Below, in pieces: positions 37,443 to 42,933 of a stretch of 64,000 nucleotides of DNA. The notes below the pieces were generated by a model, which worked only from the letters and a program-made list of their open reading frames with translations, was not told the origin of the DNA and made no database searches. How positions within the stretch are numbered: the stretch's first letter is position 1; every line of letters starts with the position of its first letter. This stretch comes from Microlunatus sp. Gsoil 973 (GTDB lineage: Bacteria > Actinomycetota > Actinomycetes > Propionibacteriales > Propionibacteriaceae). The position numbers and the translations under genes are program-made. The stretch is from assembly GCF_009707365.1 (NCBI RefSeq), contig NZ_CP046122.1, positions 1,612,001 through 1,676,000 on the forward strand, in the 5' to 3' direction.

Positions 37443-37925
37443 GTGACCTCCGATCGCCCCGGCCCCGAGACTGAGCGCGCCGCAGCGATGGCCGACCTGG
37501 AGCGGGAGATCAGCAAGTTCTTCCGCAGCGCACGCAGCCTCTCCGATCGGATCGCTGGCCGGATCCATCCCGATCTCGACGCCCCGGGCTATGCGCTGCT
37601 GGCCACCATCCTCGATCTCGACGCCGACGACCAGGGTGTCCGTGCCGTCGACCTGGCCAACCGGACCAGATTGCACAAGTCGACGCTCAGCCGCGCGATC
37701 GCCGACCTGGAACGCCTCGGCCTCATCGCCCGGGTGCGCGACCCCCACGATGCCCGGGCCAGGCTGGTCACCCTCACCGAACGCGGCCGCTCCGCCGTCG
37801 AACAGTCCCGGGTCGGACGCAGCGAACTGATGTTGAACCGGCTCGCCGAATGGGACACCAACGACCTCGTCCAGTTGGCGACGCTGCTGCAGCGCTTCAG
37901 CCGGGCGCTCACGCCCGACGCCTGA
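37443..37925 (+). CDS. MarR-family regulator (first of two)
   Basis: A 160-residue winged-helix regulator. The recognition region reads GVRAVDLANRTRLHKSTLSRAIADLERLGLIARVRDPHDARARLVTLTERGRSAVE, which is the standard MarR helix-turn-helix and beta-wing with the DPxDxR motif as DPHDAR. Helical dimerisation segments flank it. GTG start at 37443. It diverges from carA and precedes a second MarR gene by about 150 bases. It may autoregulate or act on the exporter downstream; the ligand is unknown. Confidence 0.9.
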   Translation: MTSDRPGPETERAAAMADLEREISKFFRSARSLSDRIAGRIHPDLDAPGYALLATILDLDADDQGVRAVDLANRTRLHKSTLSRAIADLERLGLIARVRDPHDARARLVTLTERGRSAVEQSRVGRSELMLNRLAEWDTNDLVQLATLLQRFSRALTPDA

Positions 37926-38078: not shown

Positions 38079-38741
38079 ATGCCCATCGAGCGTGATCAGG
38101 CGGCGAGCCTGCTCGAGGCCCTGGTGTCCCTGGTGCGGGTGACTCGCACGATCGCCCACCGGGATGCCGCGCACAGCGTGGCGGCGACCCCGATCGCACT
38201 GCTCAAGTTGGTCTCCGAGACCGATCCGCGGCTGGGTGATCTCGCCGAGCAGTTGCGAGTGAAGCCGTCGGTGGCGTCCCGTGCCGTTGCCGCACTGGAG
38301 AGCCAAGGCTACGTACGTCGGATCGCCGACCCGGGTGATGCCCGGGCCTGTCGGGTACACATCACCGGTGCCGGCCGGGCCTACCTGCGGTCGCGCGAGG
38401 AATGGGCAGTGGAGATGGTCGCCCGGACCATGTCCGACTGGTCGGCGGAGGAGGCAGAGATGTCGGTCCGCGTGCTGCAGCGGCTCGAGCAGAGCGTCAC
38501 CGACTGGGTCAGCCACTTCGACCGGGCGGTGGAGACGGGCACCGACCCGCTGGCGATGCCGGTCCCGACGCGGGACGGGGCCGACGGCGGACCCTCCGCC
38601 GGACCCGCAGCCCGGCTCGCCGAACAGGACGACCAGACCACATACCCAGATCACCACTCCGAGGACGACGGTGTCCCGGCGGACAATCCGAACGCGATGC
38701 TGAAGACAGCACTGACCACTTGGGAGACGACCGCAGTATGA
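38079..38741 (+). CDS. MarR-family regulator (second), coupled to exporter
   Basis: A 220-residue protein with a MarR winged helix (PRLGDLAEQLRVKPSVASRAVAALESQGYVRRIADPGDARACRVHITGAG, again with a DPxDxR wing). It carries an unusual C-terminal tail of about 60 residues rich in Pro, Asp and Thr. The ATG at 38079 lies 26 bases from the only AGGAG. An out-of-frame ATG at 38066, better placed for that site, opens a 9-codon reading frame that overlaps this start. The two starts look like a 13-base tandem duplication (ATGTCGATCGAAC / ATGCCCATCGAGC). The stop overlaps the exporter start (ATGA), so the two are translationally coupled, and it is the most likely repressor of that exporter. Confidence 0.88.
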   Translation: MPIERDQAASLLEALVSLVRVTRTIAHRDAAHSVAATPIALLKLVSETDPRLGDLAEQLRVKPSVASRAVAALESQGYVRRIADPGDARACRVHITGAGRAYLRSREEWAVEMVARTMSDWSAEEAEMSVRVLQRLEQSVTDWVSHFDRAVETGTDPLAMPVPTRDGADGGPSAGPAARLAEQDDQTTYPDHHSEDDGVPADNPNAMLKTALTTWETTAV

Positions 38742-41074
38742 GCACCGCTGTTGCGGAACGCAGCCCCGCCGCCGATCAGCACCGAGCCGGCGAGGAGCTG
38801 TCACACAAGGAGATCCTCGAGGTGATGGTCGGCCTGCTGGCCGCGCTGTTCACGGCGTTGATCTCGTCGACCATCGTCTCGACGGCGCTGCCGACGATCA
38901 TGGCCCAACTGCACGGCACCCAGCGCCAGTACACCTGGGTGATCACCGCGTCGTTGCTGGCGATGACCATCTCCACACCGATCCTCGGCAAGCTGGCCGA
39001 CCTGATCAACAAGAAGCTGCTGATCCAGGCCTCGATCATCCTGTTCGTGCTGGGCTCGATCGGCGCCGGCGTCTCCCAGGAGATCTGGCAGATGATGGTC
39101 GCGCGAGCCGCCCAGGGCGTCGCGATGGGTGGTCTGACCGCCATGACGCAGGCGATCATGGGCACGATCATCGCTCCCCGCCAGCGTGGCCGCTACACCG
39201 GCTACATGGGCGCGGTGATGGCCGTCGCCACAATCTCCGGCCCGTTGGTCGGCGGCTGGATCACCGACAGCTGGAACTGGCGCTGGGTGTTCTTCGTCTG
39301 CGTGCCGTTGGCGGTCATCGCGCTGTTCCTGCTGCAGACCACGTTGAAGCTGCCGCAGCTGCCGAAGCGCAAGGTCAGGATCGACGTCGGTGGTGCCTTC
39401 TTCCTGGCCATCACAGCCGCTGCGCCGATGCTGTGGGTGACCTTCGCCGGCAAGGACTACGACTGGATCTCCTGGGAGTCCGCGGCGTTCGCCGCCACCT
39501 TCGTGGTTGCCGCGCTGGTTGCGTTGATCATCGAGCTGCGCCACCCCGAGCCCATCGTGCCGATCCGGGTGCTGAAGAACAGCACGACGGCGCTGATGAT
39601 CATCGCCGGCATGGCCGTCGGTGTCGGAATGTTCGGCGCCGGCACCTTCCTGACCCAGTACTTCCAGCTGGGTGCCGGCTACACCCCGACCAAGGCCGGT
39701 CTGATGACGCTGCCGATGATCGGCGCCCAGTTGGTCAGCTCCGTTGTCGGGGGTCAGATCGTCAGCCGGACCGGACGCTGGAAGCCGATCATGATCCTCG
39801 GCGGTTTCCTGCTGGTGGGCGGCTTCGTCGGCCTCGGCATTGATCTTGATCACGCCACGCCGTACTGGCACACCGCGATCTGGATGGCGGTCGCCGGGAT
39901 CGGTGTCGGCTGTCTGATCCAGAACATCGTCCTTGCGGTTCAGAACACCGTTGACGTCAAGGACATCGGCGCCTCCTCGGCGACTATCTCCTTCTTCCGC
40001 TCGTTGGGCGGCGCGGTGGGCGTCTCGGTGCTCGGTGCCGTGCTGGCCGACAAGGTCGAGACCAGGATCATCGACGGTGTCAAGGCGCTGGGGCCGGCAG
40101 GCGCCCAGGCGGCCGGCAAGCTCGGTGGCGGTGCCGGGAACCTCAACATCGAAGGGCTTCCCGCGCCGATCCGTACCTTGATCCACAACGCCTACGCCGA
40201 CACGTTCGGCCTGCTCTTCCTGATCGCCGGCATCGCCGGGATCGGCGCCCTCATCGCCGTGCTGCTGGTTCGCGAGGTGCCGTTGCGGACCACCGTCGCG
40301 ATGCAACCCAAGGTCGACGCGGGCGGCGCATCCGCCCAGGTGTCAGGCTCGGAAGCCGTGGCCACAATGGCTGCACCGGTGACCGACGGCAAGTCCAGCG
40401 GCAACCTCGACACCAAGGTCAACAGCAACGGCATCGGTATCGGTATAGGTATCGGCAACGACAACGGCAATGGCAGCGGGCCGAACGTCCCCGAGTTGGT
40501 CACCAAGACCGGTTCGGGCGGCGATGCGGACCGGAACCCGGCGATCCGTGCAGAGACCGGTGGCCCGATGACCGAGCCCTCGCCGGGTTGGGATCCTGCC
40601 GGCCTCGACGACCCGGCCGAGCGGGTCTCGGTTGCCGCCCTGGACGTACTGGCGGCGGCCCAGGACCGGGCGCGTGCCCAGGAGGCGCTCGGCCACGAGA
40701 AGGTGACCGAACTTCTCGGTCGGCTGGACCAGTTGTCGCACGAGGTCGACGCAGCGATCGGCGCCTTCCATCGGCAGATGCAGCAGATCCGCGAGGAGCT
40801 GCTCTCCGCCGAACCCGGCCGACGCTCTCCCGCTCCGGACGGTGTCGGTGGCGACGGGCTCCGGCAGTATGAGTACAACCTGCTGCTGGACAGCCAGCAG
40901 ACCGCCGACCGGGTGACCAGGCTGGCCCGTGCCGAGGCCGAGCGAACCCTGGACCAGGCCGAGCAGGAGCGGGCCGAACTGCAGAAACGGATCGACCAGC
41001 TGCGTAATGTCGAGCGGGAGATCACCGACCGGATCTCCACCCGACTGCGCACCACCCCTGTTGGCGAGGACTGA
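38738..41074 (+). CDS. DHA2-type 14-TM MFS exporter with long coiled-coil C-terminal tail
   Basis: A 778-residue protein. Residues ~25-515 are an EmrB/QacA-like drug:H+ antiporter: LLAALFTALISSTIVSTALPTIM in TM1, ILGKLADLINKKLLIQ in loop 2-3, motif-C-like MAVATISGPLVGGWITD in TM5, and further TM segments to LLVREVP. The remaining ~260 residues are cytoplasmic: a low-complexity linker with repeated Gly-Ile and Asn-Gly (about 566-590), then a charged helical region from about residue 620 with long heptad-like runs (LLGRLDQLSHEVDAAIGAFH; ADRVTRLARAEAERTLDQAE). The latter resembles the second coiled coil of DivIVA/Wag31-like proteins. It is one uninterrupted frame; an internal in-frame ATG at 40568 could make the tail separately. 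The ATG at 38738 overlaps the MarR stop. Confidence 0.88.
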   Translation: MSTAVAERSPAADQHRAGEELSHKEILEVMVGLLAALFTALISSTIVSTALPTIMAQLHGTQRQYTWVITASLLAMTISTPILGKLADLINKKLLIQASIILFVLGSIGAGVSQEIWQMMVARAAQGVAMGGLTAMTQAIMGTIIAPRQRGRYTGYMGAVMAVATISGPLVGGWITDSWNWRWVFFVCVPLAVIALFLLQTTLKLPQLPKRKVRIDVGGAFFLAITAAAPMLWVTFAGKDYDWISWESAAFAATFVVAALVALIIELRHPEPIVPIRVLKNSTTALMIIAGMAVGVGMFGAGTFLTQYFQLGAGYTPTKAGLMTLPMIGAQLVSSVVGGQIVSRTGRWKPIMILGGFLLVGGFVGLGIDLDHATPYWHTAIWMAVAGIGVGCLIQNIVLAVQNTVDVKDIGASSATISFFRSLGGAVGVSVLGAVLADKVETRIIDGVKALGPAGAQAAGKLGGGAGNLNIEGLPAPIRTLIHNAYADTFGLLFLIAGIAGIGALIAVLLVREVPLRTTVAMQPKVDAGGASAQVSGSEAVATMAAPVTDGKSSGNLDTKVNSNGIGIGIGIGNDNGNGSGPNVPELVTKTGSGGDADRNPAIRAETGGPMTEPSPGWDPAGLDDPAERVSVAALDVLAAAQDRARAQEALGHEKVTELLGRLDQLSHEVDAAIGAFHRQMQQIREELLSAEPGRRSPAPDGVGGDGLRQYEYNLLLDSQQTADRVTRLARAEAERTLDQAEQERAELQKRIDQLRNVEREITDRISTRLRTTPVGED

Positions 41075-42145: not shown

Positions 42146-42933
42146 GCGCGAGCCCTTCGTGTCAATCGGCGCTGTGCACCGTCACATACGTTCATGAGTC
42201 CGGTTGATTCACCCGGACGATTTGTCTTGCTGCCAGCCCGTCTACGGGCAACGGCCAATTCTAGCGCCGGGCCCGCAAGGCGAGCGAGTTGATCATGTCG
42301 AGCACGCCCGACCCGGGTCCCGGGCCTTGTGCCGTGTCTCGCCCGAGCCGCAACCTCAAACTTTGAGTCAGCGACCTCCCCCACCGGCGCGCCCCGACGA
42401 TCCGCAAGGTCAAAGTTTGAGCCAACGGCCCTCGCCCCCGGCGTGTCGCAGCCGCACGATCAAACCTTGAGCTTGCGACCTCCCCCACCGGCGCGCCCCG
42501 ACAATCCGCAACGTCAAAGTTTGAGCCAACGGCCCTCGCCCCCGGCGTGTCGCCAGCCGCACGATCAAACCTTGAGCTTGCGACCTCCCCCACCGGCGCG
42601 CCCCGACAATCCGCAAGGTCAAAGTTTGAGCCAACGGCCCTCGCCCCCGGCGTGTCGCAGCCGCACGATCAAACCTTGAGCTTGCGACCTCGCCCACCGG
42701 CGCGCCCCGACAATCCGCAACGTCAAAGTTTGAGCCAACGGCCCTCGCCCCCGGCGTGTCGCAGCCGCGCGATCAAACTTTGACCTTCGCGCAAGGGAGT
42801 GGGGCCCGGCGGCGCGCGTTACGCCGGTCCGGTGGCGCGCGTCACGCGGCGCGGTGGCGCGCGCACCCGGGGGCGGCGCCGCGGGTCGCGGAGGAGAACG
42901 GGACACGCGGGGCGGGGAGCAGAACGCGTACGC
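42146..42933 (-). repeat. Gene-free 790-base gap with palindromic element A array (locus II): nine palindromes, four 104-105-bp units
   Basis: Palindromes of the TCAAA-G/C-TTTGA type start at 42356, 42410, 42460, 42514, 42565, 42619, 42669, 42723 and 42773; intervals are 54, 50, 54, 51, 54, 50, 54 and 50. They alternate between TCAAAGTTTGA and TCAAACCTTGA, making a 104-105-bp tandem unit repeated about four times with near-identical sequence (about 42,356-42,783). The conserved GTGCGGCTGCGACACGCC block reads on the minus strand. The flanks hold only a small hairpin GCCCGT-CT-ACGGGC (42236-42249) in the efp leader and, after 42,790, very GC-rich sequence without a feature I recognise. Confidence 0.92.

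Follow-up and report, generated by a model that had tools for sequence, protein, structure and literature searches.

To our knowledge, little is understood about how actinobacteria position efflux pumps in their membranes. In the window analysed here, 64,000 nucleotides from Microlunatus sp. Gsoil 973, one gene raises the question of whether an exporter could carry a scaffold of its own. A frame check and translation show that positions 38738-41074 of the forward strand form one uninterrupted reading frame for a protein of 778 aa, which we divide, together with the two genes before it, into the following features.

37443-37925, + strand: MarR-type regulator 1, 160 aa, upstream of the exporter (Pfam MarR_2, 44.8 bits, above the cut-off)
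38079-38741, + strand: MarR-type regulator 2, 220 aa (Pfam MarR, 37.4 bits, above the cut-off)
38738-40297, + strand: exporter part, residues 1-520, predicted 14-TM DHA2/EmrB-type MFS protein (Pfam/NCBIfam, hydropathy)
40298-40600, + strand: linker, residues 521-621, of low complexity and poor conservation (alignment, pN/pS, hexanucleotide repeats)
40601-41071, + strand: conserved tail, residues 622-778, with the stop codon at 41072-41074 (tail searches, AlphaFold2)
40613-40807, + strand: tail helix 1, residues 626-690 (AlphaFold2 model of the tail)
40850-41053, + strand: tail helix 2, residues 705-772, a DivIVA-like coiled coil (SQxTAD...RxxLxxRIxxLRxxE; AlphaFold2, Pfam, alignment)

The exporter part matches Pfam MFS_1 (PF07690) with 165.9 bits, above the gathering cut-off of 33.4, and its best match among 18950 NCBIfam models is TIGR00711 (DHA2/EmrB) with 225.4 bits, just below the cut-off of 230.2. 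We therefore file it as DHA2-type, without certified membership of TIGR00711. With overlapping hydropathy peaks merged by eye, 14 membrane segments are predicted; the last spans residues 493-511 and is followed by VREVPLR. The count is taken from hydropathy, and the full-length AlphaFold2 model (pLDDT 39.5) was discarded. The 14 TM segments, the MFS_1 match and TIGR00711 as the top NCBIfam match are shared with DHA2/EmrB exporters. Known members of that family, however, stop shortly past TM14, whereas here a linker and a coiled-coil tail add about 258 residues. The first-pass annotation had read this gene as a 14-TM DHA2-type exporter running unbroken into about 260 residues, in a family whose exporters usually end soon after TM14, and both points agree with the 778-aa frame and with its relatives: among 63 of them, 42 are tailed, 15 are untailed and terminate 5 to 78 residues beyond the matched exporter part, and 6 have a different, longer extension.

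The start codon of the exporter overlaps the stop codon of MarR-type regulator 2 (ATGA at 38738-38741). A gene like regulator 2 lies directly upstream in 13 of 13 orthologues of exporter clade A in the genus. For clade-B genes the count is 0 of 5, and none of the checked loci with a tailed gene in family f2, possibly Kribbella, has one there; a gene like regulator 1 occurs near 5 of the 13 clade-A orthologues. The exporter of the window is probably controlled by MarR, and its substrate may be a drug. A promoter and terminator scan detected no features, and a plasmid search gave no match. Downstream, between an efp-like and an acetyltransferase-like gene (both named by eye), positions 42356-42787 of the window hold 4.1 copies of a 104-base tandem repeat with 95% matches.

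The first-pass annotation had pointed to relatives as the place to look for the fusion and had taken a tail with no relatives beyond generic coiled coils, absent from orthologues, as a sign of accidental read-through. This condition does not hold, and the fusion is widespread. A tail search of 198 genomes of the family matched 16. Fourteen of these belong to the genus, each with the tail in a frame of 641-922 codons, and the other two have DivIVA proteins. The fusion is thus present in 14 of the 20 genomes of the genus; two of the other six (G099 and G104) have an untailed relative, and in the remaining four, which are fragmented assemblies, no close exporter was found within the limit of the exporter search. 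A profile built from 19 tails matched in 50 of the 391 genomes searched in the order: 13 belong to the genus, 27 to f2 (genome sizes 7.5-9.7 Mb), one to family f3 (G375), and 9 have stand-alone proteins. Of the 27 f2 matches, one is broken (L110, see below). Of the other 26, 14 were fetched to build alignment A4, and a further two (L171, L163) stand in the same tree; the exporter is in frame in all of these. Any match was found in 15 of 345 genomes of the class sample, two of which, from family f36, carry the fusion; the phylum sample (6 of 396 genomes with any match) yielded no further family with it. These searches scored only some of the first-look candidates, so that absences in them are no proof. 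One fusion lies on the MAG contig JAOPXN010000108.1, and the genus belongs to Propionibacteriaceae. In the literature searched, we found no published description of an exporter joined to such a tail.

The tail is not confined to one exporter per genome. A second exporter with a tail is encoded in the window's own genome, 38% identical in the exporter part and 48% in the tail, and tailed and untailed relatives coexist in single f2 genomes (e.g. G257). This second exporter (L002:3121-4134, - strand) adjoins a TetR-like regulator (by eye) and not a MarR-type one, indicating that the tail goes with different regulators. At one f2 locus (G259, L110:1581-2366), the tail stands in a frame of 261 codons with no exporter within the 7.3 kb fetched, so that the fusion has been broken or rearranged there.

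Comparison of substitution patterns shows that the tail is under purifying selection and the linker hardly so. Against the nearest orthologue, pN/pS is 0.28 for the tail, 0.39 for the exporter and 0.86 for the linker, and against the next (L032) 0.34, 0.40 and 0.80. The values climb towards saturation against more distant relatives, where the tail often exceeds the exporter (L034: 0.58 versus 0.41); the tail stays below the linker in 18 of 18 comparisons. A functionless fusion produced by accidental read-through or by sequencing would agree with the absence of the tail from most exporters of the family, but we give it almost no credence, given conservation in many genomes of several families, purifying selection, and the tail of the second exporter in the window's own genome. 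A read-through artefact in particular is ruled out by conservation across the genus, f2, f3 and f36.

The linker places about 100 residues between the exporter and two long helices. Tandem hexanucleotide repeats at 40420-40479 coincide with its Gly-Ile/Asn-Gly stretch, and these Gly-Ile and Asn-Gly runs are not common to the aligned relatives. The idea that an internal ATG might release the tail as a separate protein fared poorly: the candidate, Met 611 (base 40568) just before the tail, is Met in 0 of 18 aligned relatives, and release from an internal start is unsupported.

An AlphaFold2 model of the tail, from an alignment of two sequences (mean pLDDT 78.6), consists of two long helices at tail residues 5-69 and 84-151. 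Two genomes (G091 and G096) lack most of helix 1 and the loop and keep the start of helix 1 with a complete helix 2; this retention suggests that helix 2 is the essential part of the tail. In some f2 tails the repeat region of helix 2 is extended by 11, 22 or 33 residues, steps that match the expectation for an eleven-residue coiled-coil repeat. Among the periods tested for hydrophobic periodicity of the tail, 3.6 has the top power, which does not clearly separate 3.5 from 3.67; since periodicity gave no clear coil type, the eleven-residue argument rests on the insertion lengths.

What kind of coil is this? We scanned 37 tails singly (alignment A4, excluding the broken copy at L110 and the stand-alone proteins of L109). 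Across 24,736 Pfam families, DivIVA (PF05103), an organiser of cell poles and division sites, matches 36 of the 37 at E<=0.1, with a best value of 2e-6, and the next family matches 9; across 18,950 NCBIfam families, DivIVA_Wag31 (NF050102) matches 34, followed by V-ATPase subunit E with 15 and Scy with 12 (best E 6.7e-8). The tails are interrelated, so that these counts are not independent. In a control with ten tails shuffled so as to keep an 11-residue register, DivIVA matched 0 of 10. The alignments of tails with DivIVA run from an LLxxSQxTAD motif through alanine-rich repeats to RxxLxxRIxxLRxxE, and two DivIVA proteins (L082 and L087) have an insertion of about 11 residues in the repeat region.

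Searches with tails and tail profiles also led to 26 stand-alone proteins (2 in the family, 9 in the order, 11 in the class and 4 in the phylum searches). Among them, 22 are DivIVA above the Pfam cut-off, two match DivIVA below it (L231 and L109) and two are other coiled coils (L235 and L236). In the reverse direction, the Pfam DivIVA model matches the tail of one fused protein (G098) with E 5.9e-4, below the cut-off. The locus L109:1769-4651 (G385) encodes three coiled-coil proteins in a row; two weakly match the C-terminal part of the DivIVA model, and the DivIVA N-terminal domain is present in 0 of 3.

For single sequences the resemblance is faint. The window's own tail scores 14.9 bits against DivIVA, below the gathering cut-off of 28, and its match spans profile positions 83-126 only. 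A genus Wag31 profile, made from 12 proteins recognised by a simple motif search among 20 loci, scores the 37 real tails at a mean of 10.1 bits (1.7 to 22.5) and 740 11-register shuffles at a mean of 0.3 bits, with a 99th percentile of 12.0 and a maximum of 16.7; the window's 7.8 bits falls within the shuffle range, given that 99th percentile. The tail aligned with genus Wag31 by hhalign at a probability of 5%, and a tail profile run against the window's own genome did not find its Wag31 even at E<=10. The weak scores and the missed Wag31 indicate that the tail is no recent copy of that protein, and direct descent from the genus's own Wag31 is, together with the hhalign result, unsupported. 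By these profile tests, the DivIVA-coil resemblance of the tail appears weak per sequence yet specific. Of the likeness to DivIVA/Wag31 that the first-pass annotation had drawn by eye, the C-terminal coiled coil and the family-level match in controlled profile tests hold up, whereas the window's tail by itself stays under the Pfam cut-off and its genus Wag31 match is weak.

The tail could accordingly be an ancient coil of DivIVA type, or else one of independent origin that resembles it. On the latter account, an alanine-rich coiled coil arose by itself and would serve to oligomerise the pump or to bind a soluble partner, unconnected with DivIVA, septum or pole. The low genus Wag31 scores and hhalign probability fit it, as do the structure search of the tail and the sequence search of solved structures, both of which returned only generic helical bundles and other coiled coils, and the V-ATPase subunit E and Scy matches of some tails. 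It does not sit well with DivIVA being far ahead of all other Pfam and NCBIfam families, with the failure of same-register shuffles to match DivIVA, or with motifs on both sides of the repeats that align with DivIVA. We regard an independent coil as a real possibility, on the doubtful side. With caution, we prefer descent of the tail from a common ancestor with DivIVA.

The layout of the protein also resembles that of actinobacterial Wag31, in which a membrane part is followed by a disordered linker and a coil (PMC12393619). Common to the tail and DivIVA/Wag31 are the SQxTAD ... RxxLxxRIxxLRxxE motifs and length steps of 11 residues, in a C-terminal coil that is probably of DivIVA type here. 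In contrast to DivIVA, the lipid-binding domain at the N-terminus (positions 1 to about 60 of the profile) is absent and a 14-TM exporter stands in its place, and nothing in DivIVA clearly corresponds to tail helix 1 or the loop. Two papers attribute self-interaction, polar accumulation and partner binding to the Wag31 coil (PMC12393619; PMC12097788), and the latter assigns partner binding and support of multimerisation to the C-terminal region of Wag31; in PMC12585849, a C-terminal motif is predicted to link DivIVA dimers as antiparallel tetramers.

Our best explanation of the whole, which we hold tentatively and at slightly less than an even chance, is a DHA2-type exporter whose DivIVA-type coil clusters the pump, most probably together with the cell's DivIVA at septa or poles. 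A drug exporter would have gained, from a DivIVA-type protein, the self-assembling coiled coil but not the lipid-binding domain, and the 14 TM helices would take the place of that domain in a Wag31-like arrangement. The tail would then oligomerise, gathering pumps into clusters; since each of the 20 genomes of the genus has DivIVA, the tail probably joins that protein. Polar or septal placement of the pump is plausible in the light of the literature.

An alternative leaves location secondary: the tail may scaffold some other component of the tip or septum machinery, with a Scy-type coil as one example, or serve as a regulatory arm through which the pump's state is sensed. It draws on the NCBIfam Scy matches and on the two genomes that keep just the beginning of helix 1 together with helix 2, which means that some of these proteins do without the hairpin. 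For most tails, however, the match is to DivIVA rather than to Scy, and no conserved non-coiled domain or partner gene was seen beside the tailed genes, except MarR in some clades; we consider this alternative unlikely. Compared with this, assembly of the tail with DivIVA remains our preferred reading. As an exporter with a natural scaffold coil and untailed relatives, the system offers a clean test of whether the position or clustering of a pump matters, and would also demonstrate that polytopic membrane proteins can reuse a DivIVA coil as a module for their placement.

A tree of the 63 exporter parts bears on how the tail spread. Tailed proteins fall into two far clades, and untailed and otherwise extended relatives lie within the larger part, which implies 6 state changes, 5 of them forced by starred branches (a quick tree, with long branches flagged). 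Clade B comprises five genes in four genomes, and its nearest relatives, at <=54% identity, are all untailed. In a reduced tail tree, clade B tails group with the window's subclade (support 95/97); alternative tail trees were not rejected (AU 0.39 and 0.30), nor were B tails as a single clade (AU 0.545). One reduced tree therefore favours a transfer in which a clade-B gene received its tail from a gene of clade A, beside alternatives that were not rejected. Whichever history holds, two distant exporters carry the tail. At 14 loci of untailed relatives, tblastn found no decayed tail remnants. A stronger version of the preferred reading would regard these proteins as 'transmembrane DivIVAs', exporters built into the polar or septal scaffold by a C-terminal DivIVA coil, with the tail as a portable address tag on two distant exporter subfamilies of a single genus; we find it conceivable but rather doubtful. 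If true, toxic compounds would be expelled where new envelope forms.

The exporters with a different extension are relatives of the window's exporter (44.8-48.7% identity, six proteins) and likewise have a long C-terminal addition, of 292-451 residues. In three of these DHA2 exporters (L174, L176 and L178, from G388, G100 and G218) it contains three CarboxypepD_reg domains, and in L175, L177 and L179 it appears by eye to be of the same type. Unlike the tail described here, it consists of beta-sandwich repeats and not of a coil. CarboxypepD_reg domains are usually extracellular, and the C-terminus of a 14-TM exporter is expected inside the cell, so that extracellular-type domains at this end pose a topology puzzle for these sister exporters.
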